From the NCBI GenBank assembly GCA_000508305.1, contig CP006977.1, positions 1,706,621-1,770,620 on the forward strand: a stretch of DNA of 64,000 nucleotides. Reading direction: 5' to 3'. How positions within the stretch are numbered: the stretch's first letter is position 1; each line of letters starts with the position of its first letter. The DNA comes from Sulfolobus acidocaldarius SUSAZ (GTDB taxonomy: Archaea > Thermoproteota > Thermoprotei_A > Sulfolobales > Sulfolobaceae). Shown here one piece after another: positions 7,825-56,248 of the stretch. Position numbers and translations under genes: made by a program. The notes beneath the pieces were generated by a model, which did no database searches, had not been told where the DNA came from, and was given only the letters and a program-made list of their open reading frames with translations.

Positions 7825-10002
7825 ATGCCTAAGTATATAGGTAAACCGCTAAAAAGAATAATAGAAGATCAGCCTCTTGTGACAGGAAGGGCTACCTTTG
7901 TATATGACTTAGACCTAAGGGGTACACTTTACGCATCCTTTGTAAGGAGTCAATATGCACATGCTAAAATAAAAAGTGTAAAATGCCCTGAGGGTTCAAT
8001 GTGCTTTACGTCCTATGATCTACCTAAGGCTATCATAGGAATAGCCAGGGACGAAGCTGTCTATCAAGATCAACCTATAGCTGTAGTATTGGCTAATGAT
8101 GAGTACAAGGCAAGAGACTTGGCAGACGAGGTCGAAGTTGAATATGAACCATTACCTAGCGTAATAGACGTTGAGGAAGCCTTGAGTAATAAGGAGAAGG
8201 CTATGAGTAAATTAGAATCAAATGTCATCTTACATGATGAAGTGAATGTTGGGGATACTCAAAACGACTTCAAAAGAGCTTATAAGATTATTGAGGGAGA
8301 ACTAATCAATCAAAGGGTTATCCCTTCCGCCATGGAACCCAGAGGAGCCTTTGCACAATTTGACGGTAAGAGGTTAACAGTATGGAGTAGCACACAGACC
8401 CCATTTGACCTTAAGAAGTCCTTATCAGAAATCCTATCTGAATACGGCATTAAAGACATAAGAGTTATACAACCTTATGTTGGTGGTGCCTTTGGTAGCA
8501 AAATAATAAACTATGCTGAGGAGTTCGTTGTAGCTTATCTCTCAGTAATAACTAAGAGACCTATAAAGTGGTTTAATTCAAGGACTGAGGACATGATGAC
8601 AACAAATCACGGTAGGGATATGAGATTGAGATTTAGGGCTGCCTTTGACTCAGAGGGAAAGTTACTGGGAATAGAGGGTACACTTATACACGATCTGGGG
8701 GCACCATTTGAAGACATAAATAAGGACTCCTTTGGGATGGCAACTATAGCAGCGAGATTGTTAATAGGTAGATACAAGGTCAATTCCCTTAAAATAAAGG
8801 TTCTCGGCGTTGCAACAAACAAAGCTTTTATCGGTGCCTACAGGGGTGCAGGGAGACCTGAGGCTACATATTTCATCGAAAGGATATTGACACTAGGTGC
8901 TAAAGAACTGGGATTAGATCAATATGAGATAAGAGAGAGAAATGTGATGGACGACGTTAATTTCACTAAATTACCTACAGGCATAACATATGATAGTGGT
9001 AGGTACAAAGAGTTACTTAGAATAGCTAAACCGTACTACAATGAACTAATAAAGAGAAGGGACCAGTTGAGGAGTAAGGGTAAACTAGCTGGTGTCGGTG
9101 TCGCAATAGTAAGCGAGATAGCATCATTTGGTCCTTATTCTACAGCTAAGGTGAAGGTTCTCCCCAATGGTAGAATTCAAGTTATAACTGGCACAACACC
9201 CCACGGTCAAGGAGATGCGACAGCCTTCACACAAATAGCTGCTGAAGTATTTGATGTTGACCCATTAAACGTGGATGTGCTTTGGGGAGATACTGACCTC
9301 ATATCAGATGGAGATCTAACTGCAGGCAGTAGAACGATAACTGTCGGTGGATCTGCAGTATATGAAGCTGCAGTGAGGCTAAAGGAAAAACTGTTGAAAG
9401 TTGTGTCAGAGAAAATGGGTGTGAAGGCTGAAGAGATTGAATACAGAGAGGGTGAGTTTATTCATGGAGACAAGACCATGAGTCTATCAGAGGCTGCAAG
9501 GACTTCCATGTTTATGGGAGTATTACCCGAGCAGGACTACTCTTATGTTATGAATCTATACACATCCCCTTATGGCGTACACATGGTTCTAGTAGAGGTT
9601 GATAAAGACACAGGCTTTACTAGAGTACTGGACTACAAGGCATTTGATGACGTAGGTGTAGTTGTAAATCCATTATTGGCTGAGGGACAAACACATGGAG
9701 GTGCGCTTCAGGGTGTAGGACAAGCCCTGTATGAGGAGGCAATTTACTCTCAAGATGGTAACTTGCTGACCTCTAATTTCTCAGATTACGTTTTACCTAC
9801 TGCTGTTGAATCATTCAATGTCGAGTGGAGGTCATTTGGATTAACAAAATCTGATACCCCAATTGGGTCTAAGGGTATCGGAGAGTTACCTACGATAGCT
9901 GGAACACCTGCTGTGGTGAGTGCTATAGAAGATGCAATAGGCAAGAAGATATACACCATGCCCGTTAAACCAGAACTAGTGCTAAAGTTACTAGGAGAAT
10001 AA
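7825..10002 (+). CDS. Xanthine dehydrogenase-family Mo-binding subunit
   Basis: A 725-residue homologue of the large molybdopterin-binding subunit of the xanthine oxidase / CO dehydrogenase / aldehyde oxidoreductase family. It has the N-terminal a/b hammerhead (GKPLKRIIEDQPLVTGRATF), then PYVGGAFGSKI, RGAGRPEATYFIERI and TTPHGQGDATAFTQIAAEVF in the Mo-cofactor region, and the C-terminal SKGIGELPTIAGTPAVVSAI containing the conserved catalytic Glu. Family members oxidise aldehydes, purines or CO. The medium FAD subunit and small [2Fe-2S] subunit that normally complete the enzyme are not adjacent, so partners must be encoded elsewhere. The length is slightly short of the usual 750-800 residues. 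The substrate is not predictable; an aldehyde is the default guess. Confidence 0.88.
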   Translation: MPKYIGKPLKRIIEDQPLVTGRATFVYDLDLRGTLYASFVRSQYAHAKIKSVKCPEGSMCFTSYDLPKAIIGIARDEAVYQDQPIAVVLANDEYKARDLADEVEVEYEPLPSVIDVEEALSNKEKAMSKLESNVILHDEVNVGDTQNDFKRAYKIIEGELINQRVIPSAMEPRGAFAQFDGKRLTVWSSTQTPFDLKKSLSEILSEYGIKDIRVIQPYVGGAFGSKIINYAEEFVVAYLSVITKRPIKWFNSRTEDMMTTNHGRDMRLRFRAAFDSEGKLLGIEGTLIHDLGAPFEDINKDSFGMATIAARLLIGRYKVNSLKIKVLGVATNKAFIGAYRGAGRPEATYFIERILTLGAKELGLDQYEIRERNVMDDVNFTKLPTGITYDSGRYKELLRIAKPYYNELIKRRDQLRSKGKLAGVGVAIVSEIASFGPYSTAKVKVLPNGRIQVITGTTPHGQGDATAFTQIAAEVFDVDPLNVDVLWGDTDLISDGDLTAGSRTITVGGSAVYEAAVRLKEKLLKVVSEKMGVKAEEIEYREGEFIHGDKTMSLSEAARTSMFMGVLPEQDYSYVMNLYTSPYGVHMVLVEVDKDTGFTRVLDYKAFDDVGVVVNPLLAEGQTHGGALQGVGQALYEEAIYSQDGNLLTSNFSDYVLPTAVESFNVEWRSFGLTKSDTPIGSKGIGELPTIAGTPAVVSAIEDAIGKKIYTMPVKPELVLKLLGE

Positions 10003-31266: not shown

Positions 31267-32184
31267 ATGAGGCAGATCGATGCTCTTAAATCCCCAAGAT
31301 TTACCCAAGTTTCCACTTTTGGAAGACTTCCAATATGTTTACCACAGGAAGAGGTTAAAGCGGCTTTCCTTGGAATACCCTTCGATGATGCCGTAACATA
31401 TAGAACAGGAACTAGATTTGGACCAATGGCTGTAAGACAAGGTTCAAGGTTACTAAGACCTTACAATCAGTTTCTGGATACATATCCGTTTGACAAACTT
31501 AATGCTTGTGACCTTGGAGATGTGAATATAATACCGGGGTATATTGAGGACACCATAAAGATAATAGAGAAAGACGTATACGACATTATATCATCTAAAA
31601 AGTTGATTCCCTTCATAACTGGAGGGGACCACTCCATAACACTTCCCATACTGAGAGCTATGCATAAGCAATATGGTAAGATCAACTTGATTCATTTAGA
31701 CTCCCATTATGACTTCTGGGACACTTACTGGGGTAAAAAATATACACATGGGAGTTGGTTAAGAAGAGCACTCGAGGAGGGTTTAATCAAAGACGTTATT
31801 CAGGCTGGCATAAGGGCATCTACATTTTCAAAGGAGGACTTAAGTGACAAAGTGAAGCTAGGAATAAAGAGTTTCACCATTAGAGAGTTAAAACTTAATC
31901 CCAAAGATATATTAAAGGAGATCGAATCACTCAAAGGACCCACTTACGTCTCACTTGATATAGATGTAGTTGATCCTGCATTTGCACCTGGAACAGGGAC
32001 TCCTGAAGTTGGAGGTCTATCGAGCTTTGAGATAATAGAGTTCATAAGGCAATGGAGATTTGACAAATTAGTTGGATTTGATGTCGTAGAGGTGTCCCCA
32101 CCATACGATGTCAGTGAGATAACCTCAATGCTAGCAGCTAACATAATATATGAGGGACTAAGTATCTTATCATTGTCCTTTTAG
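31267..32184 (+). CDS. Agmatinase/arginase-family ureohydrolase
   Basis: A 305-residue manganese-dependent ureohydrolase. Metal-binding motifs are GGDHSITLP, LIHLDSHYDFWD (family consensus DAHxD, here DSHYD) and SLDIDVVDPAFAPGTGTPE. The family cleaves agmatine, arginine, guanidinobutyrate or similar guanidines to urea and an amine. TTTTTATAATC at 31236-31246 is the TATA box of a leaderless transcript starting at the ATG. Neighbours (amidases, beta-alanine aminotransferase, glutamine synthetase-like ligase) suggest amine or guanidine catabolism. The exact substrate is open; the DSHYD change may or may not matter. Confidence 0.87.
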   Translation: MRQIDALKSPRFTQVSTFGRLPICLPQEEVKAAFLGIPFDDAVTYRTGTRFGPMAVRQGSRLLRPYNQFLDTYPFDKLNACDLGDVNIIPGYIEDTIKIIEKDVYDIISSKKLIPFITGGDHSITLPILRAMHKQYGKINLIHLDSHYDFWDTYWGKKYTHGSWLRRALEEGLIKDVIQAGIRASTFSKEDLSDKVKLGIKSFTIRELKLNPKDILKEIESLKGPTYVSLDIDVVDPAFAPGTGTPEVGGLSSFEIIEFIRQWRFDKLVGFDVVEVSPPYDVSEITSMLAANIIYEGLSILSLSF

Positions 32185-34074: not shown

Positions 34075-35409
34075 ATGGAAGAAGATGTCTTAACTAAGAA
34101 CTTAATAAAGCAACATACATTTAGGACATGGGGAAAACAGAAAAACTGGGATCCTCTAGTAATCAAAGAGGGTAAGGGTGCATATTTTTCTGATTCCAAA
34201 GGTAATAAGTACCTGGACTTCTCCTCCCAGTTCATAAATGTTAATTTGGGCTATGGTAATGAAAACGTAATTAAGGCTATAGAAAAACAGTTGGAAACAT
34301 TACAATACATAAATCCTTCATTAGGGGTCAGTATTAGGGCTGAGGCATCAAGGGCATTACTAGAAGTGATGCCAAAAAACATAACTAAATTCTTCTTTTC
34401 AACCTCAGGCACAGAAGCCAATGAAGCTGCGATAAAGATCATAAGGCTGATTAAGAGACCTTCTTTCAAGATTCTATCTAGATACAGATCTTATCATGGC
34501 TCCACAGAGGGATCCATATCTCTGACTGGAGACTACAGGAGATGGTTTGTTGAGCCTAACATAATGCCAGGAGTTGTAAGATTTCCAGAGCCTTACTGCT
34601 TCAGATGTCCCTTGAAACTGAAATATCCAGATTGCGGTATAGCATGCGCAAATTACGTAGAGTACATCATAAAACAGGAAAAGCATGTCGCAGGAATTAT
34701 AGTTGAACCCATAACAGGTACAAATGGTGTGATCGTCCCGCCGAAGGAGTACATGCCCTTATTAAGGAAGATCGCCATGGAAAATGATGTCATATTTATT
34801 GTAGATGAAGTTATGACTGGATGGGGTAGAGTAGGGGAATGGTTTGCTGTAAATCTGTGGGGTATTGAACCTGATATTTTAACCACTGCCAAGGGGGCTT
34901 CAGCATCATATGTTCCTATTGGTATTACAGGAGTTTCTAAGGAGATCGTAGATTTCTTTGAGGATAATGTTTTTGCTCATGGTCATACGTTTGAAGCTCA
35001 TCCTGTCTCCTTAGCTGCCATTCCTGCTGTTATCAGTGAGTACAAAAGGCTCAATCTACTTCCACACGTCAGAGAGATAGGAGAATATTTAGGGCAGAGA
35101 TTAAATGAGCTCAAGGGAAGGCACATAAGCATAGGAGATATAAGGGGAGTCGGTCTGTTCTGGGCTGTAGAGTTGGTGAAGGATAGTAAAAACACTCCCT
35201 TTGCAGACTATGATGATAAATATGAAGGTAAACCAATTTTACTTGATCTATTAGCCAGAAAAGCCTTAGAAAGTGGAGTATTTGTATACAATGGACCTTC
35301 GTGGTTCATAATAGCCCCACCCTTAGTTGTTGAAAAGGAAGATATTGATAAAGGCATAGAGGTATTGGACAAAGTGATAAGAGAGGCTGACAATCAGTAC
35401 AGAAATTGA
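34075..35409 (+). CDS. Class III aminotransferase (beta-alanine aminotransferase)
   Basis: A 444-residue PLP enzyme of the omega-amino acid:pyruvate / 4-aminobutyrate aminotransferase class. Landmarks are FFSTSGTEANEAAIK (PLP phosphate region), SRYRSYHGSTEGSIS, DEVMTGWGRVGEW (Asp contacting the PLP nitrogen) and TTAKGASASYVPIG, whose Lys forms the Schiff base. It also has a Cys-rich insertion (YCFRCPLKLKYPDCGIAC). It would convert beta-alanine to malonate semialdehyde. The TATA box at 34044-34052 gives a leaderless mRNA. It is divergent from barR, its reported activator. Identity with Saci_2137 is from memory of the BarR work. Confidence 0.9.
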   Translation: MEEDVLTKNLIKQHTFRTWGKQKNWDPLVIKEGKGAYFSDSKGNKYLDFSSQFINVNLGYGNENVIKAIEKQLETLQYINPSLGVSIRAEASRALLEVMPKNITKFFFSTSGTEANEAAIKIIRLIKRPSFKILSRYRSYHGSTEGSISLTGDYRRWFVEPNIMPGVVRFPEPYCFRCPLKLKYPDCGIACANYVEYIIKQEKHVAGIIVEPITGTNGVIVPPKEYMPLLRKIAMENDVIFIVDEVMTGWGRVGEWFAVNLWGIEPDILTTAKGASASYVPIGITGVSKEIVDFFEDNVFAHGHTFEAHPVSLAAIPAVISEYKRLNLLPHVREIGEYLGQRLNELKGRHISIGDIRGVGLFWAVELVKDSKNTPFADYDDKYEGKPILLDLLARKALESGVFVYNGPSWFIIAPPLVVEKEDIDKGIEVLDKVIREADNQYRN

Positions 35410-38844: not shown

Positions 38845-40140
38845 ATGTCACAATCCATAAAGGATAAGCTGAGAAGTTACAATGTCGAGATGCTTAGGTT
38901 TACATGGGTCGGGTTGGATGGAGTTATCAGGTCCAAAGGAGCCCAAGTGAGCCATGTGGAAGAGCTAATAAGAACTGGTATTGGCGTCACCAAAGCCCTG
39001 TTCAGCTTTACCCCGATGGACATAATATCTCCTTATGGTTCCTTTGGTCCTCAGGATGAGGATGTCTTTATAGTCCCAGACTTATCGACTTTGACCGTGT
39101 TTCCACCCTCAGCTATTGTAATATGTGAAGTTAGAGATAAGGGAAAGCCTTGGGAGTTTGATATGAGAAGTAAGTTAAATGCGAGATTAGAGAAACTTAA
39201 GGAGGAAGAAGGTTACGACGTGAGATCGTCCTTTGAGATGGAATTCTACCTTGTGAAGGATAGGAAACCATATGATGACGCAAGATGCTTCGACTCCTCT
39301 GCTTTTTACAATAATCCAGTAATAAGTGAGATGATAAAAGTACTCACAAACTCAGGGATAGATATTATAAGGGTTATCAAGGAGTACGGACCTGGTCAAT
39401 ACGAGTTTGATATAGTTCACAAGAACTCATTGAGGAGTGCTGATGAGGTGGTAATATTCAAGGAGATAACAAAACAGATTGCCCTCTCAAAGGGTATTGA
39501 GGCTAACTTCATGCCTAAACCGTTCAACAAACTACCAGGGTCAGGTATGCATTTGAACATAAGCCTTTGGAGAGAAGGAAAAAACGTATTTTATGATCCC
39601 AAGGACAAATATGGACTGAGTGAACTAGGATATAATTTCATTGCCGGACTGCTGGAGCATGCAAAGGCTCTCACTGCATTAGTTGCACCTACAGTTAATT
39701 CATATAAGCGATTAATACCAGGCTCATGGGCACCGACTAAGATATCTTATGGGTATAACAACAAATCTACCATGATAAGAATACCAACCCCTTATCCTAC
39801 AATGGAATCACATGACAGGAGAGTTGAGTACAGGGTTCCTGACGCTTCTGCCAATCCTTACCTAGTTATATTAGCTGTCTTGGAGGCTGGACTTGATGGT
39901 ATTGAGAGGGGACTAAAACCCGGTAATCCTGTAAACGAAAATGCTTACCTTAGAAAAGACATAGAGGATATTCCAAGAAATCTAAGGGAGGCTTTACGTG
40001 AGCTAGATAAAGACAAAAGATTGAAGGAGAGAATAGGGGAACAGGTTGTGAGGGAGTTCATAAACATCAAAAGTGCTGAGGTTGAAGAGTTCGAATCTAT
40101 TGTAACGGACTGGGAGTACGAGGTTTACAGGAAGATCTAG
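38845..40140 (+). CDS. Glutamine synthetase-like amine ligase
   Basis: A 431-residue member of the type I glutamine synthetase family. Conserved parts include FEMEFYLV and YGPGQYEFDIVHKN (metal/glutamate site), GSGMHLNISLW (ATP/ammonia region) and the NSYKRLIPGS loop. In true glutamine synthetases that loop continues as GYEAP, with the Glu that closes over ammonia; here it reads GSWAP, so the Glu is replaced by Trp. RIPTPYPTMESHDRRVEYR also differs from the usual NRS-type segment. It therefore probably joins glutamate to a larger amine rather than making glutamine. It is coupled (1-nt gap) to an amidohydrolase gene. Confidence 0.85.
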   Translation: MSQSIKDKLRSYNVEMLRFTWVGLDGVIRSKGAQVSHVEELIRTGIGVTKALFSFTPMDIISPYGSFGPQDEDVFIVPDLSTLTVFPPSAIVICEVRDKGKPWEFDMRSKLNARLEKLKEEEGYDVRSSFEMEFYLVKDRKPYDDARCFDSSAFYNNPVISEMIKVLTNSGIDIIRVIKEYGPGQYEFDIVHKNSLRSADEVVIFKEITKQIALSKGIEANFMPKPFNKLPGSGMHLNISLWREGKNVFYDPKDKYGLSELGYNFIAGLLEHAKALTALVAPTVNSYKRLIPGSWAPTKISYGYNNKSTMIRIPTPYPTMESHDRRVEYRVPDASANPYLVILAVLEAGLDGIERGLKPGNPVNENAYLRKDIEDIPRNLREALRELDKDKRLKERIGEQVVREFINIKSAEVEEFESIVTDWEYEVYRKI

Positions 40141-40141
40141 C

Positions 40142-41194
40142 ATGATGATAGATTCTCATTGCCATTGGTTTTCTGCCAAAGTTATGGACGAAAAGGAATT
40201 TATGATGGCATCAGCTGAGTCGTGGGGGGAAAAGGAGATAAATACTGACGTAATTGAAATGAACAAGTGGAGACCATTTTACCTCATGCTAAAAAAAGAG
40301 ATGAAGAGACTTTTAGGAGATGACTTCATCAAAGAGAGGAATAGGTTAATAAGGGACGACCCTGTAAGTTACATGAAATTCCTAATTGATGATGCTAAGA
40401 TTAGAGCTTTTGTGATTGATGAGGGATTTGGAAGCAAAGAGATGGAAATACCTGCACCGTATAAGCGTCTCTTTAGGATAGAGAGCATAATTAATTCAAG
40501 TCTCTTCTCTTTATCCTTTGATAAGGCAACAGAGTTCTTTGAGGAGACATTGAGGAATAAAGTAAGGGAAGGATATGTGGGGTTCAAGAGCATAATAGCT
40601 TACAGAACTGGTCTAAATATAACCTGCAATGAGTTGAAAGCGTTAGAGGACTTCTTGTCAAGAGATGAGGATTGGTATGGGGAGAAGAAAAAGGGCTTCA
40701 GGGACTATCTGTTATGCAAGACTATGGAGATAGCTAAAGAGTTAGATGTACCACTGCAGGTTCACACGGGTGCTGGTGACAGGGATATAAAGCTTGAACT
40801 GTCGAGACCAGCTTACTTGACTAATGTTGTGAGAAGGTATGAAGGAAAAATAGTGTTTGTTCATTCAGGATACCCTTACCATAGGGAGACTGCATGGATG
40901 AGTTATATATTTCCTTCAGTATACTTAGACCTGTCTCAAGTCTGTCCATTTGCCCCTTTGGGGGCTTTAAATACTTTAGAGGAGATAGTGGAGGTTGCGC
41001 CTTTTAACAAAATAATGTATGGGAGTGATGGGTTTAATATACCTGAAATATCTTGGATTTCAGCTAAGATATTTCCAAGATATTTAGACATAGTCCTGAA
41101 CAAAATGGTCTCATTAGGAATAATTGAAGAGGAGGAAGAGATAAGGCAAATGATATTATCTCGGAATGCCTCACGTTTATACAAGCTTGATTAA
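40142..41194 (+). CDS. Amidohydrolase-family hydrolase (FluG N-terminal type)
   Basis: A 350-residue TIM-barrel metal hydrolase. DSHCHWF supplies the HxH pair, VPLQVHTGAGD and KIVFVHSGYP further His ligands, and IMYGSDGFNIPE the late catalytic Asp. The start is ATGATG one nucleotide after the stop of the glutamine synthetase-like gene. In fungi and some bacteria the same two domains are fused (FluG), so this pair looks like the split form. It probably hydrolyses an amide or gamma-glutamyl product related to the ligase. There is no obvious signal peptide. Confidence 0.82.
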   Translation: MMIDSHCHWFSAKVMDEKEFMMASAESWGEKEINTDVIEMNKWRPFYLMLKKEMKRLLGDDFIKERNRLIRDDPVSYMKFLIDDAKIRAFVIDEGFGSKEMEIPAPYKRLFRIESIINSSLFSLSFDKATEFFEETLRNKVREGYVGFKSIIAYRTGLNITCNELKALEDFLSRDEDWYGEKKKGFRDYLLCKTMEIAKELDVPLQVHTGAGDRDIKLELSRPAYLTNVVRRYEGKIVFVHSGYPYHRETAWMSYIFPSVYLDLSQVCPFAPLGALNTLEEIVEVAPFNKIMYGSDGFNIPEISWISAKIFPRYLDIVLNKMVSLGIIEEEEEIRQMILSRNASRLYKLD

Positions 41195-41421: not shown

Positions 41422-41437
41422 AAAGTTTAAAAACTTT
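41422..41437. promoter_or_regulatory. Palindrome over the TATA box of the dehydratase gene
   Basis: AAAGTTT-AA-AAACTTT is a perfect 7-bp inverted repeat at -33 to -18 from the ATG at 41455, covering the TATA box. Similar AGTTT/AAACT palindromes lie before 44328 and 45629. It is a candidate for the HHC box I recall from Sulfolobales carbon-fixation genes; I do not remember that consensus. Confidence 0.4.
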
Positions 41438-41454
41438 AAACATTATTATACAGT

Positions 41455-42972
41455 ATGGTAATTAGAACAGGAGATCAATACGTCTCGTCTATAAGTAACC
41501 GCTCTAAGGTGGAAATATACGTTCTGGGAAAAGAGGTCAAGGATGTAACGAGACATCCATTCCTTAAGCCATCTGTGATGTCCTTTAAGGCAACATTTGA
41601 TGCTGCATGGGATGAGGACACAAAGGAGCTAGGAAGAGCCTGGAGTCCATACCTTGAGGAAGAGATAAACAGGTTTAATCACATTCATAGGTCACCAGAG
41701 GATTTAGCTGCTAAGGTTAAACTACTGAGAAAACTTAGTCATAAGACGGGAGCATGTTTTCAGAGATGTGTTGGTTGGGACTCTCTAAATACACTGAATA
41801 TAGTGACCAAGATTATGGCAAATAAGGGTAAAACTGAGTCTAGAGACAGGTTTGTAGAGTATCTAAAATACGTGCAGAAGAACGATTTAGCACTTGCAGG
41901 AGCCATGACAGATGTTAAGGGTGTTAGGACATTGAAGCCCAGCCAACAGCCAAATAAGAACGCTTACCTTAGGGTCACTGAAGTAACAAAGGACGGAATT
42001 TATGTGTCCGGAGCAAAGGCAAACATAACAGGAGTAGCTGCAACCGAGGAGATGGTCGTCTTACCTACTAGGGCTATGGGACCAGAGGATAAGGATTACG
42101 CTGTAGCCTTTGCAATACCTACGGACACTGAGGGTATTAAGATTGTGGTCGGGAGGCAAATTAACGATGCAAGGAGAATGGAAGAGGGTGAAATTGACGG
42201 TTTGCCATATTTCTACAACCATGAAGGGTTGGTAATATTCGACAACGTATTTGTCCCTATGAACAGAGTTTTTCTAGCTGGAGAATGGGAGTACACTGGT
42301 ACATTAGTGGAGATATTTGCTGCTTATCACAGGCAGGGTTATGGGGGGTGTAAAGCAGGCTTAGGAGATGTGATAATCGGAGCAAGTGCTGACTTAGCCA
42401 AGCAGATTGGCGTTGAAAAAGCTCCTCATGTACAAGACAAGTTAACTGAAATGATATTCCTGACTGAAACCATGTACTCTGCAGGGATTGCGGCAAGTCT
42501 TAATGCGGTTAAAATGTGTGATAATTGCTGGTGGGTTAATCCAATGCACGCTAATGTGACTAAGCATTTAGTTGCTAGATTTCCTGCACAGATCAGCCAG
42601 TTAGCTATAGATATAGCAGGTGGAATGGTGGGAACTGCACCGAGCGAATGGGATTTGAAGAATCCCAAATTAAAAGAATATATAATGAGATATTTACAGG
42701 GAGTTGAGGACTTCACCGCAGAGGACAGACTTAGAATGATTAGGTTAGTAGAGAATGTAAGCATGGGAGTTGCATTCCAAATCGAATCTATTCACGGCGC
42801 GGGAAGTCCTGCTGCACAAAGAATAATGTTTTCAAGACTTTATGATCTCGATCTGGCTAGAGAAATATCGAAGAAATTGGCTGGTAGAAAGGCTGATCTG
42901 AAGATGACTACCAAGCCAGAGCCATGGAGAGAGACACAGTCGGAACAAGAAGCAAAGGAACATGGTAAGTAG
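41455..42972 (+). CDS. 4-hydroxybutyryl-CoA dehydratase
   Basis: A 505-residue flavoprotein with a [4Fe-4S] centre. Cluster ligands are present: Cys101 and Cys105 (ACFQRC), His292 and Cys299 ([10 protein letters not shown]). Tyr296, Lys300 and Glu257 match the active-site residues of the Clostridium enzyme at identical numbers for the 257-300 block, and a late Glu ([10 protein letters not shown]) is also kept. It converts 4-hydroxybutyryl-CoA to crotonyl-CoA, the key radical step of the 3HP/4HB cycle. Sulfolobales also carry a second, degenerate paralogue; this copy has the complete ligand set. A palindrome overlaps its TATA box. Confidence 0.92.
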
Positions 42973-43208
42973 TATTAAAAAATCAAGCCAACTTAATACA
43001 ACAAATTTTCTGGGATTTCTGGCTTGAATAGAAAAACTATTATTTTAATCTAGATATTTTTCCGTTAAATCCAAAAGAGCATAGAAATAGATACCAGAGC
43101 ATATAATTTAATGAGTTATTATGCACCCCTAATTATAGTACTCTGAACTTACAAATACATGAAAACTGGTAGTATAGATCAATTGTCAGAAGCCACTTCT
43201 GATCTCGA

Positions 43209-44207
43209 TTAACTTTTGGACTTCATTATCTCTGAACTATGTCCGCCAAATATGGACACATTTGGATCTATATACTTCTTTGCTATACTTGTAGCTATAG
43301 CAGCCTGACTAAAACCTATAGCAATTAAAGCCATCTTTGGCACCCCTTCTTGGCTTGCAATATCGCCGGCAGCATATACGCCAGGTAAATTCGTTTCCAT
43401 CTTCGCATTCACTAAAATATCCCTTCCCTTCATGTTTAAACCCCATCTGGGAACATTTCCTAGATCTCCCTTATGTCCAATACTTATTATTACAGCATCA
43501 ACATCTAGCGTTTTCTCCTCCTTTGTCCTATTATCAAATATTACAGCCTGGGTAACCCTACTTCCATCCCCCTTTACTTCCTTCAACTCATGCCAAGTGT
43601 GAACTGAAGCTATGTTATACAACTGTTTTACACTGCTCTCATGTGCTCTAAACTGATCTCTCCTGTGAATTAATGTGATTGACTTTGCAACTGGAGCTAG
43701 GTTAATAGCCCAATCTACAGCTGAATCTCCTCCTCCGACAATCAAAATTCTCTTCTCCTCAAAATCCTTCTTCCTTTTAACTGTGTAGTATACCCCCCTA
43801 TTTTCATACTCGATCTCTCCTCCTGCACCTAGCCTTGATGGTGTGATCTTCCCTATACCTAATGCTAGTAGTACTGTTTTTCCCTTAAACTCATTTCCCT
43901 TATCAGTTTTTACCATCCAAAGATTATCCTGCGTCCTTGTAATCCAATCTACCCACTCCTTAAGTCTTATATCAGGTGAAAACATCTTTGCTTGTTCTAT
44001 GAGGTTCTGGGCTAGGTCATATGCCAAAATGCCAGGATACCCTCCAACATCATAAACCATCTTCTCAGGATATATTGTGACCAGCTGTCCACCTAGCTCA
44101 TCTTGTGCGTCAATTAGTAAAGCACTCATATCTCTTAGACCGGAATAAAACGTTGCAAATAATCCTATAGGTCCTCCACCGACGATTATTATATCATATT
44201 CCTTCAA
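43209..44207 (-). CDS. Ferredoxin--NADP reductase (thioredoxin reductase-like)
   Basis: A 332-residue FAD/NAD(P)-binding protein: [18 protein letters not shown] near the N-terminus (FAD), [17 protein letters not shown] near residue 155 (NADPH), and [14 protein letters not shown] near 280 (FAD). The CxxC redox pair of thioredoxin reductases is absent, which identifies the YumC/TrxR-like ferredoxin-NADP reductase group. [11 protein letters not shown] favours NADPH. It could supply reduced ferredoxin or NADPH for the surrounding carbon metabolism. It is divergent from the NADP-type alcohol dehydrogenase, with 120 bp between. Confidence 0.88.
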
Positions 44208-44306
44208 TATAGGTACCCAATAATTGATTATGTTTATATTATTTAAATTTTTTGATTATGGAACAATAAATCACTATGAATTAATGATAATATAAACTTT
44301 TTAAGT

Positions 44307-44316
44307 AGTTTAAACT
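44307..44316. promoter_or_regulatory. AGTTTAAACT palindrome in the ADH promoter
   Basis: A perfect 10-bp palindrome at -21 to -12 from the ATG at 44328, flanked by AGTAG/CTACT arms (44304-44308 and 44318-44322). It shares AGTTT...AAACT halves with the palindromes before 41455 and 45629. Confidence 0.35.
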
Positions 44317-44327
44317 TCTACTATATT

Positions 44328-45419
44328 ATGCTAGCAGGAGTGCTTCATAACTATAAGGAACCTATAATTGTGGAGGAAGTGGAGATAGAGGAGCCTAAGG
44401 AAAATGAGGTAATGATTGAGGTTAAGGCTACTGGAATGTGTCACTCTGATGTAAATGTTTTTTTAGGGTCAACACCAGTCCCTACACCTGTAATTGCAGG
44501 ACATGAGATAGCCGGCAGAGTAGTGAAAGTGGGACACAATGTAAGCAGAGTAAAAGAGGGTGATAGGGTTATATCAACTTTCATTCAACCTTGTGGAAAG
44601 TGTAAGAATTGTATATCTGGTATTGAAAATCTTTGTGAAACTTTTGCATCAGTTAGACTGAAAGGTACAATGTTTGACGGTACAACTAGAGTTAAATATA
44701 AGGACGGAAGATCTATAAGGACATTTTTAGGTGGAGGATTCGCAGAGTATTCTATAGTACATGAAAATGCATTGACTAAGATAGAGGACAACAACGTAAA
44801 TATAGAGGAACTGGCTGTGTTAGGATGTTCTGGTATAACTGCTTATGGTGCAATTAGCTCTGCCAACATAAGACCTGGGGATAGTGTAGCTGTAATAGGA
44901 GTTGGTGGTGTTGGGCTTTCAGTTATACAAATGCTGAGAGCAGTGGGGGCAGGGAGAATAATTGCTCTAGGAACAAAGAAGTGGAAATTGGAAAAAGCTC
45001 TGGAGCTTGGAGCAACAGATTTCATAAACACCAAGGAATCTGAGCCAGTAAAAACCCTGAAGGAAATGACCAATGGTGGTCCAGATATAGTAATTGAGGC
45101 TGGGGGAACCCAAGAGACCATACAAATGGCTTTAGAAGGGGTTAGAATCGGTGGGAAAGTGGTTTTGATAGGCTTACCACCTACATCAGCATTAATTCCC
45201 GTAAGAGTCTCAATGATAGTGCGAAATGGAATCACTATAATAGGTAATTATGGCAGTAAACCTAGGGTTGATATGCCGAAACTAATAGAGTTAGTTAGGA
45301 CAAAGAGATATGACCCACAGAAACTCATTACAGGAAAATTCAAGTTAGAGGAGATCAATGAGGCTGTAAAATTGTTAGAAGAGGGGCTTGCAATAAGGAG
45401 TTTAATTATTCCTCACTAG
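44328..45419 (+). CDS. Zinc alcohol dehydrogenase, NADP type (possible succinate semialdehyde reductase)
   Basis: A 363-residue medium-chain dehydrogenase. Catalytic zinc ligands lie in GMCHSDVN and AGHEIAG; structural zinc is bound by [15 protein letters not shown]; the Rossmann motif is [11 protein letters not shown]. The second strand ends in ALGTKKWK, with Thr/Lys instead of Asp, pointing to NADPH. Its overall form resembles my memory of the Metallosphaera succinate semialdehyde reductase. Neighbours encoding 4-hydroxybutyryl-CoA dehydratase and malonyl/succinyl-CoA reductase support a role in reducing succinate semialdehyde to 4-hydroxybutyrate, or malonate semialdehyde to 3-hydroxypropionate. 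The substrate call is inference. Confidence 0.8.
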
Positions 45420-45594
45420 CCTCTCCACGTAAATCTAGTAATTACCTTAAATAGATAGTAAGTTATTCCCTTCATGACTGAAATAACATGATCAGTTTTT
45501 AGCACAGAATAAGATGTCACGTTTACATTTCATAGTGATACATCATTTAAATACATTTATGACATGTTTCATATAATTTATCATGAGAAACGTA

Positions 45595-45609
45595 AAGTTT
45601 TTTAAACTT
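45595..45609. promoter_or_regulatory. AAGTTT-TTT-AAACTT palindrome over TATA box
   Basis: A perfect 6-bp inverted repeat with a 3-nt spacer at -34 to -20 from the ATG at 45629, covering the TATA position. Same type of element as at 41422-41437. Confidence 0.4.
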
Positions 45610-45628
45610 CTTATACAACTTAAATAAG

Positions 45629-47056
45629 ATGAACGTAGATAGTTTACATGAATATGAAAGAATCCACAAGGAACTTGTAGAAGAAGGATTCATAAGAAGA
45701 GATTTTCCCCCAAATCCCTCCATCAAACTATGGAATGAAAGAGTAATGAAGATGCCTAGAAATGAGTTAGATAAGTTAAAGACAGTCAGGCTAAAGAGAT
45801 TGGTTAAATGGGCATGGGAAAATGTTGAATTCTACAAGAGGTTTTGGAAGAACAGGGGATTCTATCCTGAGTACATCAAGGACTGGAGAGATATTGTGAA
45901 AATTCCTGTACTTAGGAAAGAGGATATAAGGACTGACTTACAGACACACCCACCTTTCGGAACCATATTTCATCCAGACTTAGCCAAAAGGATAAGGTTT
46001 GTTGGTGCAACTTCAGGTTCCACAGGAATGCCCACATTTCAAGGATGGGGAAAACTGGAATTAGACTGTTTTCAGGAAGCTCAGGCTAGGTATCTATGGA
46101 GTTTCGCTGGAGTAAGACCAGGTATAACGTACGCCAACTACCTAAACATGAGCGGGTTTTACAGTTGGGGTCCTCCGGTAGTTGAGACGGCAATGTGGAG
46201 ATGTGGGGCTACTACCATTGCTGGGGGAGGAGAAACGTTTTTCTCTTGGAAGCAGAGACATATGTTAATATTCAAACTGTGGAAGATAGACGTCTTTGCA
46301 ACTACACCTTGGTTACACAGATTAATAGGAGAAATGGCAATAGAGGAAGGATGGGAGACTCCCTTCAAGGTTCTGTTATTACATGGAGGTGCAGCTGCTG
46401 ATAATACGAAGAAGAGACTTTTTAAGGTACATCCCAATGCTGAGATGGCAATAAACGTCTGGGGAACTACAGATGGACATATGGCTGTAGAATTACCCAA
46501 CTCAAGAGGAGAGCTTGTGATATGGGAGGATATGGAGATCTTTGATGTAATAGACCCGAAGACCAATGAACCGGTTTCTGAAGGGGAGAGGGGTGAATTG
46601 ATAGCAACTCTACTTAATCACTTTACCATGCCACTGATTAGGTACAGTTTAGGGGATTACGTTAAAAATGAGTTTATAACCGAACCAGATCCAAACTTTG
46701 GTATAACTCATGCCAGATTTGTAGAGCCTATACCAGGGAGAGTCGAGTGGATGTTCAGAGTAAAGGGAAAATTACTGTTGCCAATATATATTGAAGATGC
46801 AATAAATGAAATACCTGACACGACTGGAATGTTCAACATAATGGTTTATGCAGAGGAGATGGAGAAGCTGAGGATAAAGATAGAGAGTAAGAGAGACAGA
46901 GTAGATGAGGCTTACGATAAGTCAGCTAAAGCTTTGCTAGCGAATAAGATAGGATTGGACGAAAATGACGTTGAGATAGAATGGATTAGACCAGGAGAGG
47001 CTGTCTGGACTGGTTATAAATTACAAGTCTTCGTGGATCAAAGAAAGAAGAGGTAG
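45629..47056 (+). CDS. Phenylacetate-CoA ligase-like acyl-CoA ligase
   Basis: A 475-residue AMP-forming ligase of the PaaK branch. The AMP-binding motif is [15 protein letters not shown] (around residues 130-145), followed by [14 protein letters not shown] and [29 protein letters not shown], the usual late PaaK motifs. It activates an organic acid to its CoA thioester with ATP. In this cluster, candidates are 4-hydroxybutyrate or 3-hydroxypropionate, but PaaK-like enzymes also use aromatic acids. Its promoter has an AAGTTT/AAACTT palindrome on the TATA box. Confidence 0.83.
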
Positions 47057-48468
<1,412 letters not shown>

Positions 48469-48627
48469 TTGAAGAAGGACCAATCTAATGTATTTTTACA
48501 CAAGGAGGATATACTCCTTCATTTTTAATTACTTTATAGTAGAGTAAAGATATGTTTTCTAAATGTTTTAGAATTTTCTACTTGATCGATATATTTATTA
48601 TTTATTATTGCTTAAATTTATTTTGAT

Positions 48628-50295
48628 ATGAAAGAAGATAGACCTTGGTTTAAATATTGGCCTCCCAAACTACCAAAGAGTTTAGATTACCCTAAGGCTC
48701 CTCTGTTCAATATATTAGAGGTCTCAGCTAACAGATACCCTGATAAGGATGCAATAATTTACTATGGAACAAGGATAAAGTATGAAAAATTGTGGAGCGA
48801 TACACTGAAATTTTCCTCCTTCTTGTATAATGAGCTTAACATAAAGAAGGGAGATAGAGTGGCAATATTTATGCCTAACTCTGTCCAGTGGATAATGGCT
48901 TACTTTGGAACACTTAGGGCTAATGCTGTAATAGTTCCGATAAATCCATTAATAGCTGAAGACGAGCTTAACTATATTCTTAAGGATTCAGGTTCAGTGG
49001 CTGTTGTGACTCTCTCCTCTCAATTACCTAAAGTTACAAAGGCTATCCAGGGAACTGAAGTGAGGAGCATTATCTCCGGAATGTTCAGAGACTACCTACC
49101 CTCATCCCCTGAAATTAGGGTTCATCCCCTAATGCTAAAGGAACCTGAGATTCAAGGTGATGTGATAAAGTGGAGGGAGTCAATAAGTAGTAACAGACCT
49201 TTACCGGAAGTAAGTGTAACTAATGAGGACATAGCCCTTATACCCTATACCTCAGGTACTACAGGGTTTCCTAAGGGGTGTGTTCATACCCATTCAACAA
49301 TATGGCCAACAGTTGTGGGCTCATCTTTCTGGAATATGGTCACACCTTCCGCAATTGGTCTTGCATCATTGCCTCTCTTCCATGTTACGGGGTTTATTCA
49401 CAGTCTCAACACTCCAATGTACGTGGGGGGAACTATAGTTTTAATGTCCATATGGGACAGGGAAGCTGCTCTTGACACCATAGAGAAGTATAAGGTAACT
49501 CATTGGACTAATATATCCACGATGGTAATAGATCTACTTTCAACCCCCGGAATCGAGAAGAGGGATCTAAGTTCATTAGTGATGATAGGAGGAGGTGGAG
49601 CTGCTATGCCTGAGGCTGTTGCTAAGAAATTAAGGGAACTAACTGGACTCGATTATGTAGAGGGTTATGGATTGACAGAGACTATGTCTCAAATACATGT
49701 AAATCCACCACATAGACCAAAACTTCAGTGTTTAGGAATTCCTCACTTCGGTGTGGATGCCTTAGTTGTGGATGCCTCATCTGGAGAAGTCCTTCCACCA
49801 AATAAGGAAGGAGAAATTGTGGTCAAATGTCCTAGTCTCTTTAAAGGTTATTGGAGAAAAGAAGAAGAGACTAGAAAATCCTTTATCATAATAAATGGTA
49901 CTGAATATTTTAGAACGGGAGACCTAGGCTACATGGATGACGAGGGTTATTTCTTTATTGTTGATAGAGTGAAAAGAATGATAAATAGAGCAGGTTTTAA
50001 GGTGTGGCCTACAAAGGTAGAGAACAAGTTATACCAACATCCAGCAATATTGGAGGCATGCGTAGTATCGACGCCTGACCCTAGAGTAGGTGAGGAAGTA
50101 AAGGCTTATGTAGTATTGAGACCTGAGTTTAGAGGTAAAGTTACTGAGGAGGACATTATAAACTGGAGTAAGGAGCATATGAGTGCTTATGAGTATCCTA
50201 GAATCGTAGAGTTTGTGGACTCATTGCCTAAAAGCGGTTCTGGAAAGATATTATGGAGGGTCCTGCAGGACAAGGAGAAGAATAAGTCCCACTGA
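48628..50295 (+). CDS. AMP-forming acyl-CoA synthetase
   Basis: A 555-residue ANL-superfamily ligase. The phosphate-binding loop is PYTSGTTGFPKGCVHTH, followed by GYGLTETMSQIH, FRTGDLGYMDDEGYFFIVDR, and the C-terminal catalytic Lys in PKSGSGKILWR. It resembles medium/long-chain fatty-acid CoA ligases but also the 4-hydroxybutyrate and 3-hydroxypropionate CoA synthetases of Sulfolobales. The position after malonyl-CoA reductase favours a 3HP/4HB-related acid. It is the last gene of the cluster on this strand. Confidence 0.88.
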   Translation: MKEDRPWFKYWPPKLPKSLDYPKAPLFNILEVSANRYPDKDAIIYYGTRIKYEKLWSDTLKFSSFLYNELNIKKGDRVAIFMPNSVQWIMAYFGTLRANAVIVPINPLIAEDELNYILKDSGSVAVVTLSSQLPKVTKAIQGTEVRSIISGMFRDYLPSSPEIRVHPLMLKEPEIQGDVIKWRESISSNRPLPEVSVTNEDIALIPYTSGTTGFPKGCVHTHSTIWPTVVGSSFWNMVTPSAIGLASLPLFHVTGFIHSLNTPMYVGGTIVLMSIWDREAALDTIEKYKVTHWTNISTMVIDLLSTPGIEKRDLSSLVMIGGGGAAMPEAVAKKLRELTGLDYVEGYGLTETMSQIHVNPPHRPKLQCLGIPHFGVDALVVDASSGEVLPPNKEGEIVVKCPSLFKGYWRKEEETRKSFIIINGTEYFRTGDLGYMDDEGYFFIVDRVKRMINRAGFKVWPTKVENKLYQHPAILEACVVSTPDPRVGEEVKAYVVLRPEFRGKVTEEDIINWSKEHMSAYEYPRIVEFVDSLPKSGSGKILWRVLQDKEKNKSH

Positions 50296-50329: not shown

Positions 50330-51505
50330 TCATGACATATGTCCCTTTCTTGCCACTATGTTAAACGCTACTGCACCTATGAGAGTCGTAAAGAGTGACA
50401 TGAAAATTATACCCTGCAATTCCACCTGATCTAATGCGTTAAGAGATAATCCAATTGTAGCTACGACAAGCCCTGTTTCTCCCCTGGGGATCATTCCCAG
50501 TGCAACAGCATTAGCAGTCTTCAAGTTCTTAATGAAAAGGTAGGCAAATGGAAATACACCTAAGTATTTGAATAGTGAGGAGATTCCGGTGAGCTCTAAG
50601 GAGAGTAACAGGACATTGATATTAAACATCCTCAAATCCACTTGCGCCCCAGTAACTACAAAGAAAAGAGAACCGAAGATACTTAGTAATACATTACTTA
50701 TCTCCTTTATCTTGTTACTCTTTGTACTATTTGCTATTGACATTCCAGCTACAAAGGCTGAAATTATCGGCTAATATCCTAAAGAGACCATAATTAACGA
50801 CAGACCGAACAGTATGACTAAAGGTGCCTCTTGTATGTATTTGTCGCTTAACCTGTCTAGTATTCTTGGTATAATGTATACGGAGACAGCTAATATAACC
50901 ATCCAGATAATTACGAGACTAGAGACAGTTATTCCTAAGGAGGTTATGCTTACTGAAGAACTCTGAATAACAGCTATTGCCGTGGATAGTAATAATAAGT
51001 CAACTATATCATCCACTGCAGATGCTGACACCAGGAAGTTTACTCCTTTTCCTTTAAGCTTGAGTTCATCAAGAATAGATGCTACTGCAGCTAAGCTTGT
51101 AGCACCCATAGACACACCTAAAATCAACGCTGAGTTAAAGCCGAAAGATGGTGTATAGATGTAGAACGTTAAGATGAATGGCAAAAAAGCTCCAAAAAAG
51201 GCTCCTAAAAATCCTAAAACGCCAGCTGACCGTATTGGTGCTAATCCGTGTTCGAGACCAGCTGCGAATATTAATAATATTACTGCAAACTCGGAAAGGA
51301 ATATAACGTATTCATTTATCTCTATTATAGAAAATCCAAACAAATCATTTATTATGTAACCTAAAAGGTAAGGACTTATAAGTATTCCAGCTATCAGCTC
51401 GCCAATAAGATAGGGGAAGCCGTATCTTGCTAAAGCAGATCTCACTACTTCAGCGATAAATATGAAAAGGGATATATCAAATAAGGCAATAATCAGTATG
51501 TCCAT
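50330..51505 (-). pseudogene. CPA2 Na+/H+ antiporter interrupted by in-frame TAG
   Basis: Two minus-strand segments (50771-51505 and 50330-50743) lie in the same frame and together make one 391-codon CPA2 (NapA/KefB-like) antiporter, broken only by TAG at 50771-50773. The reading is SLIMVSLGY-stop-PIISAFVAGMSIANS; family members have a residue such as Ser there, so one base change (TCG to TAG) would explain it. The first half holds the ion-binding SAVDDIVDL pair of Asp; the second half holds FGSLFFVVTGAQVDL. It could be a recent pseudogene, a strain-specific mutation, an assembly error or a suppressed stop. Confidence 0.85.
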
Positions 51506-51692: not shown

Positions 51693-52979
51693 TCAATGTT
51701 CCTCTTCAGGTTCCTTATATTTTCCTAAGATCTCTAATATTTCTGCATATAGGAATCCAATGATGATCCAACTAAAGAATATGTAATTTATTGCAGGGAT
51801 ATTCTCTTGGATAGCGTATATTAAAACAACAAGTGACATAATACTAGCCAATACTCCTAATGTGATCTCTTTTTTCCTTTTCCTTATTTTCTTGATAGAT
51901 ATCCTGACTAGCGAAAAGCTGGCTGAGACTGAAATTAAGAGATAGCTTAGTACTGTAAGACCACCTAGGAATAGGAAAGTTGAATATGTACCGAAAAAGT
52001 GTATGGAGATGATAAGGAGAATAGAATAAATTATAAGGGAAGAGACTTCAGCGTTAAATGGTCTATTATCACGACTTTTGGCTAGGAAACTGGGCATAAA
52101 ATTGTTTTGAGACATAGAGAACATAGCTCTTGACATTGCTATTATATAAGCAATACCACCCAAAACACCTCCGTTCAGTGCCGAGAAAATAAGGTAAATG
52201 AATATAAATGGCGAGGAGTCCCTTATCAATTGCAGGAGATCACTGTTTCCATAAAGTGAAGAGCCATAGAATAAGAGGGCAGATAACAGCCCACCAGCTA
52301 GTATCACGGCAACTGTAATTATACCCACAACTCTTCTAGCATTTTTGACCTCTCCTGACATCGGATTAAGATTTTCGTAACCGATAGGCATGCCTATAGC
52401 GTATAGAATGACTAAGAAAGGATTAACTGGGATAGTTAGCGAGAAACTCGAGTTAGCTTTTATCAGCAAAATGAGAGAGGCTACTATTATAGCAGTGATT
52501 TCAGCTAACGATATGAACTCAGCATATTTCACAGAGAGATCTAGCCCCCTCACTATGAAGAAGGCAGAGACTAGGATGATAATTATGGTAAAAATATCCT
52601 CACTTAAAAAAGGATATTTCACATAAGTCGACAGTATGTATATTGATCCTGCCAATAGAGTCCCACCATAGGCAAAGGCGTATAAAGTGAACATCCAACC
52701 ACTAAGTAATCCTAATCTCTCTGTCAAGGAGTAAAAGGCATAGGTGAAATATCCTCCCTGTTGAGGATATCTTATCGATAAGCTGTAAATGACTAAACCG
52801 TTAACCAATACTAGTATCGTTCCTATTATGGTTGCTGGGACCAAGAAGGAACCTCCCAGTTGAAGTCCTACAGTACCGAACGTGATGATGGAAGTGAGTG
52901 GTGCCTGACCACCAAACGAGAGTGAAAATGCCTCAAACACCGATAGAGCTTTTTTATTACTCACAATACCTAACCACAT
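51693..52979 (-). CDS. APC-family amino acid permease
   Basis: A 428-residue membrane protein with about 12 TM segments. The opening SFGGQAPLTSIITFGTVG and IRYPQQGGYFTYAFYSLTER match the APC signature around TM1-TM3, and PIGYENLNPMSGEVKNARR is typical of TM6 and its following loop. It probably imports an amino acid or amine with protons. It stands alone on the minus strand, next to the broken antiporter. Confidence 0.85.
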   Translation of the reverse strand: MWLGIVSNKKALSVFEAFSLSFGGQAPLTSIITFGTVGLQLGGSFLVPATIIGTILVLVNGLVIYSLSIRYPQQGGYFTYAFYSLTERLGLLSGWMFTLYAFAYGGTLLAGSIYILSTYVKYPFLSEDIFTIIIILVSAFFIVRGLDLSVKYAEFISLAEITAIIVASLILLIKANSSFSLTIPVNPFLVILYAIGMPIGYENLNPMSGEVKNARRVVGIITVAVILAGGLLSALLFYGSSLYGNSDLLQLIRDSSPFIFIYLIFSALNGGVLGGIAYIIAMSRAMFSMSQNNFMPSFLAKSRDNRPFNAEVSSLIIYSILLIISIHFFGTYSTFLFLGGLTVLSYLLISVSASFSLVRISIKKIRKRKKEITLGVLASIMSLVVLIYAIQENIPAINYIFFSWIIIGFLYAEILEILGKYKEPEEEH

Positions 52980-55360: not shown

Positions 55361-56248
55361 ATGGTGATAAATTTAGACCCTTTATTTCTCGGAATAGTAT
55401 TCTTGATTGCGTCTATACCTACAGGAGGTTTAGGATATGGGTTTTCTGCAGTGTCCACACCCATTCTCTTGATCGATTACTCACCTAAACAAATTTCCCC
55501 TATACTTAACTTTATCGAGCTCTTTCAGAATTCTTCAAATGCTATAATAAATTCTAGGAAACACACACTTAAGAGAGAAATAATCTTTTTTGTACTCTTC
55601 GCCAGTCCTGGTCTGGTCGTGGGATCAATTCTAGGTTCCTATATACTTAAAACCTTAGGAGGGACAAGTCCTCAGCTAAAAATATTGATATATGTAATCT
55701 TGATTCCCTTAATTCTATTACAGGCTTACGGTTTTAGAAAGTCTTTTACATTAAAATCGTGGAAGTATTTAGGCTCCATCATCACCCTACCAATCGGATG
55801 TCTTTATGGAATAACCACAATAAGCGGTCCGCCTCTAGCGTTGATAGTTAACAATCAGGGTTTAAGTAAGGACGAATTCAGATTTGCTATCGCATTACTT
55901 AGAGTGGTAGAGAGTTATACAACATTCACCTCATATCTTGCCTTAGGAGTATTTTCCCCAACAGTGATTTATTATTCCGCCCTGACTTCTCCAGCAATCA
56001 TAGGAGGGATGGCTATTGGATACTTTCTGAGCTCAAAAGTCAGAATAAAGGAGGACTTCAGGAGAGTGGCTATGAGTTTTGACGCGTATGTAACAGGCTT
56101 TGGCCTATCTAATAACTTAGCTGGAATACTCTCTAACAGTCTCGTTATATGCTATATACCCTTCTTCATAACGGTTTTAATAGACTTAATATTATTACGC
56201 AGGTATGTGAAAGTTCAGAGACCTAAGTACAAAACTCAAAATTCATAA
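55361..56248 (+). CDS. TauE/SafE-family permease
   Basis: A 295-residue membrane protein with about eight TM segments and the two-repeat layout of TauE/SafE. LIASIPTGGLGYGFSAVSTP near the N-terminus and LPIGCLYGITTISGPPLALIV in the second repeat are the conserved glycine-rich segments. The family exports sulfonates, sulfite or organic acids. The C-terminus is short and basic (RRYVKVQRPKYK), probably cytoplasmic. The substrate is unknown. Confidence 0.8.
   Translation: MVINLDPLFLGIVFLIASIPTGGLGYGFSAVSTPILLIDYSPKQISPILNFIELFQNSSNAIINSRKHTLKREIIFFVLFASPGLVVGSILGSYILKTLGGTSPQLKILIYVILIPLILLQAYGFRKSFTLKSWKYLGSIITLPIGCLYGITTISGPPLALIVNNQGLSKDEFRFAIALLRVVESYTTFTSYLALGVFSPTVIYYSALTSPAIIGGMAIGYFLSSKVRIKEDFRRVAMSFDAYVTGFGLSNNLAGILSNSLVICYIPFFITVLIDLILLRRYVKVQRPKYKTQNS

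Follow-up and report, generated by a model that had tools for sequence, protein, structure and literature searches.

What does a set of carbon-fixation genes do in an archaeon that grows as a heterotroph? The question is raised by a window of 64,000 nucleotides from Sulfolobus acidocaldarius SUSAZ (contig CP006977.1, positions 1,706,621 to 1,770,620), in which genes for enzymes of the 3-hydroxypropionate/4-hydroxybutyrate (3HP/4HB) cycle lie together at 41455-50295. S. acidocaldarius is described as non-autotrophic (an obligate heterotroph), with key cycle genes but without Msed_1423 and Msed_0566 (PMC7078158). The puzzle, which a sequence-only reading of the window also posed, stands but was already raised in that paper. 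The locus is best explained as a Sulfolobus-specific, rebuilt 4-hydroxybutyrate (4HB) module for heterotrophic conversion of succinyl-CoA and 4HB. We give this explanation even confidence, since what the enzymes act on, which way flux runs and what the module does for the cell are inferred.

The comparison set consisted of 31 Sulfolobaceae genomes. The window genome, G000, is a single contig of 2,061,920 bp. Sulfolobus is represented by two genomes, G000 and G023, and genus g6 is Metallosphaera. We take G023 to be DSM 639, G009 to be M. sedula and G030 to be S. tokodaii.

Enzymes encoded in the cluster

The sequence-only reading had placed six genes within 9 kb, and all six open reading frames (ORFs) were open where it had put them.

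41455..42972, plus strand: 4-hydroxybutyryl-CoA dehydratase (4HBD), type 1, Saci_2143 by inferred order; assigned by PDB matches, active-site residues, tree and approximately unbiased (AU) test
43209..44207, minus strand: thioredoxin-reductase-like protein, putative ferredoxin-NADP reductase (FNR), diverged second copy; two copies in G000 and G023 only
44328..45419, plus strand: Zn-alcohol dehydrogenase, ortholog of succinic semialdehyde reductase (SSR) Msed_1424; assigned by orthology, synteny and tree
45629..47056, plus strand: PaaK-type AMP-forming CoA ligase, ortholog of Msed_1422, putative 4HB-CoA ligase; assigned by orthology and synteny
47401..48468, plus strand: malonyl-CoA/succinyl-CoA reductase (MCR), fast-diverged duplicate; assigned by match to PDB 4dpk
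48628..50295, plus strand: FadD-type acyl-CoA ligase, probably outside the cycle; in 9 of 31 genomes, no promoter element
G000:C1:2053211-2054269 (chromosome end): second MCR copy

The best PDB matches of 4HBD were the Clostridium aminobutyricum 4HBD entries 1u8v (415 bits) and 6vjr (413 bits). Residues Cys101, Cys105, Glu257, His292, Tyr296, Cys299 and Lys300 were all identical in 1u8v (7/7), as the earlier claim of complete Fe-S ligands and Tyr/Lys/Glu residues had it. Their roles are presumed to be those of Fe-S ligands (Cys/Cys/His/Cys) and of the active site (Tyr/Lys/Glu). Two other HpaB_N proteins in G000 keep just 2/7 and 0/7 of these residues. In a residue audit of invariant columns, with the rows of G004, G021 and G022 left out, 4HBD retained 221 of 222 columns invariant across 25 relatives. 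A 463-aa paralog without the Fe-S cysteines was found at L345 2423-3814 (G000:C1:858428 region), near TetR-like and acyl-CoA dehydrogenase-like genes (both named by eye) and a 3HCDH-type gene.

MCR scored 565 bits to the S. tokodaii malonyl-/succinyl-CoA reductase 4dpk and 261 bits to the best aspartate-semialdehyde dehydrogenase. Its catalytic Cys is retained within PLCTAQG, as had been claimed. Judged by relatedness and this residue, the cluster MCR is a Sulfolobales-type malonyl-CoA/succinyl-CoA reductase. ATG 47410 is a more likely start than 47401.

The alcohol dehydrogenase has 70% identity to a G009 gene at a syntenic place beside the 3-hydroxybutyryl-CoA dehydrogenase (HBCDH, Msed_1423) and acryloyl-CoA reductase genes. 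The gene order given in PMC7078158 places Msed_1424, succinic semialdehyde reductase, beside Msed_1423/1426, so the cluster gene is assigned as the Msed_1424 ortholog. It had been called NADP-type, and its cofactor loop GTKKWKL indeed contains no acidic residues, which is also true of G009 and G030. The Zn-binding motifs are retained. SSR has a match in 29 genomes and a single match in 25 of these. The PaaK-type ligase has 74% identity to the G009 gene adjoining HBCDH and an ortholog in 26 of 31 genomes. Its best PDB match was 2-hydroxyisobutyryl-CoA synthetase 6hdw (132 bits). For FNR the gene stood, doubled in Sulfolobus alone, and its name was less secure: the NCBIfam TRX_reduct match was well under cut-off, and the name is an assumption taken from the sequence-only reading.

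By these assignments four of the genes, MCR, SSR, PaaK-type ligase and 4HBD, are steps 10-13 of the 3HP/4HB cycle, from succinyl-CoA to crotonyl-CoA. The partial 3HP/4HB cluster claimed earlier does consist of cycle enzymes, but it is the 4HB half and not a sample of both halves. The two acyl-CoA ligases it was said to contain are both present but do not form one group. The PaaK-type ligase follows the cycle, and the FadD-type ligase, found in two Sulfolobus and seven g7 genomes and in no other genus, does not and is probably not part of it. As a candidate 4HB-CoA synthetase the FadD-type ligase was rejected, with 26-30% identity to three full-length FadD-like ligases in two G009 regions. Saci_2141 is glnA-3 (PMC3584215), and gene order from it would make 4HBD Saci_2143 and the FadD-type ligase Saci_2148. 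Table 3 of PMC11486757 includes saci_2148 with lipid-metabolism genes that go up under overfeeding (log2 2.1 and 1.1); this table, a selection, does not contain Saci_2143-2147.

Distribution and history of the cluster

4HBD was found in 27 of 31 genomes. The regions around it were compared in 20 of the 26 other genomes that bear it, 19 of these outside Sulfolobus. Genes for steps 10-13 lay side by side in both Sulfolobus genomes and in 0/19 other regions, and match positions elsewhere agree. The window gene order was repeated by G023 alone. Among the 19 non-Sulfolobus regions the ligase was near 4HBD in four (G001, G016, G019, G020), and an orthologous SSR, FNR or MCR in none. The compact cluster is confined to the two Sulfolobus genomes. 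SSR-ligase adjacency is partly old: HBCDH lies between the two genes in g3 and g6, and no HBCDH lies between them in g10.

A Msed_1423 ortholog was present at 64-100% in 25/25 non-Sulfolobus genomes with 4HBD (three rows with one flagged stop). None was found in G000 or G023, where the best matches were to ORFs of 678 aa (50-51%) and to one of 398 aa (48%). The HBCDH gap reported for DSM 639 (PMC7078158) holds in the window genome too. A search of the window for an HBCDH remnant by tblastn gave a single chance-level match (E 0.17), far from the SSR-PaaK gap.

Phylogenetic trees of RpoB (without G005, G021 and G025) and 4HBD were in conflict. In the RpoB tree Sulfolobus grouped with g8 and g11 (support 98/97), and a Sulfolobus-Metallosphaera clade was rejected by the AU test (p 9e-8). 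In the 4HBD tree Sulfolobus grouped with Metallosphaera (100/100), and grouping with g8 and g11 was rejected (p 5e-52). Mean identity of the Sulfolobus 4HBD was 90.0% to Metallosphaera compared to 82.7% to g11; G000 and G023 share 98%. With each test rejecting the grouping of the other tree, exchange of the 4HBD gene between the Sulfolobus and Metallosphaera lineages is well supported. Nesting of the Sulfolobus 4HBD within Metallosphaera had support of 96/95, yet a tree with Metallosphaera held as a clade was not rejected (p 0.279), so the exchange may have run in either direction.

MCR is present in two copies in G000 and G023 and in one copy in each of the 25 other MCR-bearing genomes. Out of 180 otherwise invariant columns, 22 differ in the cluster copy and five in the second copy. 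Unique changes numbered 19 in the cluster copy and two in the second copy (binomial p 0.0002). Three derived residues common to both Sulfolobus copies occur in no other genome, which favours duplication within the genus. A weak branch (67/93) and look-alike promoters also point to within-genus duplication, the favoured history; AU tests on the placement of the two copies rejected 0/3 alternatives (p 0.136-0.223). FNR is likewise duplicated in G000 and G023 only, with nine unique changes compared to two (p 0.065). Stem lengths were 0.36 for SSR and 0.39 for the PaaK-type ligase, within a range of 0.36-0.42 that includes the cluster MCR. RpoB had 0.12 and the second MCR 0.15.

Between G000 and G023 the ratio of nonsynonymous to synonymous substitution rates (dN/dS) was 0.038 for 4HBD, 0.050 for FNR, 0.045 for SSR, 0.032 for the PaaK-type ligase and 0.033 for MCR. 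All five are under the published mean of 0.053 for S. acidocaldarius core genes (PMC8267890), and their frames are intact in both genomes. The five genes are, on these ratios, under strong purifying selection. The FadD-type ligase had 0.093 and neighbouring genes 0.038 to 0.19. Among the 12 window genes with a ratio, the TauE-family exporter at 55361-56248 evolves fastest (0.19).

Promoter elements

Promoters of 4HBD, SSR, the ligase, HBCDH and MCR from five genera, Sulfolobus excluded, were used to learn a motif de novo. It was an 18-bp palindrome near GYTTAWANNNTWTAARC. A 2015 study by Leyn reportedly defined an HHC-box regulon with an 18-bp palindrome upstream of cycle genes. The HHC box is described as an 18-bp motif in PMC5461723, and the learned palindrome resembles it by description, not by published consensus letters. 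The proposed HHC-box regulator is disputed in PMC12529230. Three elements were found in the cluster.

41425..41442, plus strand: palindromic HHC-box-like element GTTTAAAAACTTTAAACA upstream of 4HBD; score 19.9, 0/2000 Markov shuffles as high
44231..44248, minus strand: HHC-box-like element upstream of FNR; score 11.8, 6/2000 shuffles as high
44299..44316, plus strand: HHC-box-like element upstream of SSR; score 13.7, 0/2000 shuffles as high

Scores were 6.7 for the ligase, 4.8 for MCR and 1.1 for the FadD-type ligase. The 41 other window genes had a mean of 1.5 and a maximum of 11.3. This maximum belongs to a molybdopterin-binding aldehyde/xanthine-type oxidoreductase gene (7825-10002), and an exact match in G023 is probably at the same gene. 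It may be a true member, in which case the control maximum may be too high. An exact scan of G000 gave two matches, upstream of the cluster 4HBD and of the other FNR, and the reversed control gave three, so the case for the element rests on its place and not its number.

FNR was outside the training set, yet the motif scored at least 9.8 in 28 of 32 FNR rows (misses G001, G004, G021 and G022), which ties FNR to the genes of the cycle. MCR promoters scored at least 8.6 in 24 of 25 non-Sulfolobus rows (G017 2.0), and all four Sulfolobus rows scored 4.8-6.6. By these scores Sulfolobus retains the element, which it shares with autotrophic relatives, upstream of 4HBD, SSR and FNR. Both MCR copies have lost it, and the ligase has a weak one. 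The element of the 4HBD promoter is absent in 7/7 g7 genomes (L103, L105-L110; -4.3 to 2.8), several of which keep the FNR and ligase elements.

Role of the cluster in a heterotroph

In the preferred reading MCR would reduce succinyl-CoA to succinic semialdehyde and SSR would reduce this to 4HB. The PaaK-type ligase would convert 4HB to 4HB-CoA, and 4HBD would dehydrate 4HB-CoA to crotonyl-CoA. Crotonyl-CoA would exit via general beta-oxidation enzymes to acetyl-CoA, and there is a long ORF resembling Msed_0399 that contains 3HCDH. FNR would balance NADPH and ferredoxin. Most likely the module would drain succinyl-CoA (e.g. from glutamate) or 4HB to acetyl-CoA instead of closing a CO2-fixing cycle. 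Of the roles offered in the sequence-only reading, 4HB assimilation, as processing of 4HB and succinyl-CoA, fits best, and beta-alanine use found no supporting gene in the cluster. PMC11486757 describes the tricarboxylic acid cycle as saturated when nutrient supply is elevated, with additional cataplerotic routes, which is compatible with a 4HB route but not evidence for it.

Several points weigh against this reading. The 4HB-CoA ligase activity of Msed_1422 is marked ND in Table 1 of PMC7078158. Intergenic gaps of 120-344 bp and A+T-rich elements upstream of genes suggest separate promoters, and the cluster genes look like separate transcription units rather than one operon. Since MCR has lost the element and that of the ligase is weak, the genes need not form a single regulon. 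The long SSR, PaaK and MCR stems could reflect a shift in substrate or acquisition from a lineage that was not sampled. A literature search found no paper naming Saci_2143-2147 or saci_2370, and no substrate, flux or expression datum for Saci_2143-2147.

A fuller history is tentative and somewhat doubtful. Sulfolobus may have lost HBCDH and given up autotrophy, then duplicated the two-substrate MCR and brought its fast-diverging copy together with the SSR, ligase and 4HBD genes. Malonyl-CoA and succinyl-CoA reduction would then be split between the copies, leaving a stand-alone heterotroph pathway from succinyl-CoA to acetyl-CoA made out of half a CO2-fixing cycle.

Autotrophy, another of the roles offered earlier, could instead be dormant, the whole cycle being functional but off or electron-starved in the laboratory, with a beta-oxidation hydratase/dehydrogenase in place of Msed_1423. 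All key cycle genes are reported in DSM 639 and 17 Sulfolobus genomes (PMC7078158, PMC5127849), an acryloyl-CoA reductase ortholog is present in G000 (72%), and the strong purifying selection agrees. A regulatory cause is given in PMC7078158 with reference to Zeldes 2019. The same paper says that Msed_0399 is missing from four autotrophic species, one of which has been shown to have the cycle, so enzyme use is flexible. The missing dedicated dehydrogenase and the loss of the element at both MCR copies weaken this role, and the element is also absent at acryloyl-CoA reductase (but that of G009 itself scores just 5.2). MCR duplication with fast divergence would be unexpected of a merely idle cycle, and dormant autotrophy is judged unlikely.

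Catabolism of gamma-aminobutyric acid (GABA), polyamines or 4HB is likewise unlikely. Here neighbouring genes would feed succinic semialdehyde or 4HB into 4HBD, as in C. aminobutyricum.

31267-32184: arginase-family gene, within 11 kb of the cluster
34075-35409: class III aminotransferase gene, within 11 kb of the cluster
38845..41194, plus strand: glutamine-synthetase-like gene (Saci_2141 glnA-3) and amidohydrolase gene, neighbours of 4HBD in the window as well as in genus g3

The glutamine-synthetase-like protein resembles gamma-glutamylputrescine synthetase, and the pair adjoins 4HBD in g3 too, with 1,457 bp between the amidohydrolase gene and 4HBD in each of the two g3 genomes. The match to the gamma-glutamylputrescine synthetase model is far under its cut-off (364.8 bits, cut-off 650), the adjacency is only physical, and GABA or 4HB could be used without the MCR that the cluster contains. 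Amidohydrolases from g1, g3 and g5 are most alike (71-73% compared to 60-66%), contrary to the species tree.

The long stems allow that SSR, the PaaK-type ligase and the cluster MCR moved to other substrates, with 4HBD alone keeping the old chemistry. Stems longer than those of RpoB and the second MCR favour this, but the MCR catalytic Cys, SSR cofactor loop and Zn-binding motifs are retained, and such a shift is quite unlikely. That the locus is a relic of lost autotrophy drifting towards loss is very improbable: Msed_1423 is lost, two promoter elements are lost or weak and downstream transporter genes are decaying, but dN/dS is 0.03-0.05 with intact frames, and 4HBD has one change in 222 otherwise invariant columns. 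Downstream, a Na+/H+ exchanger gene (50330-51505, minus strand) is split by one internal stop, and G023 retains C-terminal remnants only. The amino-acid permease gene beside it (51693-52979) is truncated in G023.

The preferred heterotrophic 4HB module was set beside three known systems. The M. sedula 3HP/4HB cycle (Msed_0709, 1321, 1422-1426) uses the same four enzyme families from succinyl-CoA to crotonyl-CoA, with 4HBD ~90% identical. The Metallosphaera genes are dispersed, with HBCDH Msed_1423 present and MCR and FNR single, whereas in Sulfolobus they are clustered, without HBCDH, and both are double. C. aminobutyricum makes 4HB from GABA and obtains CoA by transfer from acetyl-CoA. Its 4HBD has the same chemistry and active-site residues (1u8v), but the Sulfolobus cluster has an AMP-forming ligase and MCR. 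In Pyrobaculum neutrophilum the same half-cycle is clustered and some described heterotrophs keep it too, but there it belongs to a dicarboxylate/4HB cycle linked to autotrophy (PMC12794621); the likeness is one of gene content. No earlier report of the 4HBD exchange, the two MCR copies or the Sulfolobus cluster was found in the papers searched, and Table S3 of PMC7078158 may list both MCR copies.

Genomes with 4HBD and MCR genes are often taken to be autotrophic. Sulfolobus retains both genes under strong selection, with gene exchange, duplication and re-clustering, yet is unable to fix CO2 in culture. This suggests how half of a carbon-fixation cycle may be kept for another use, in an organism, S. 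acidocaldarius, that is genetically tractable.

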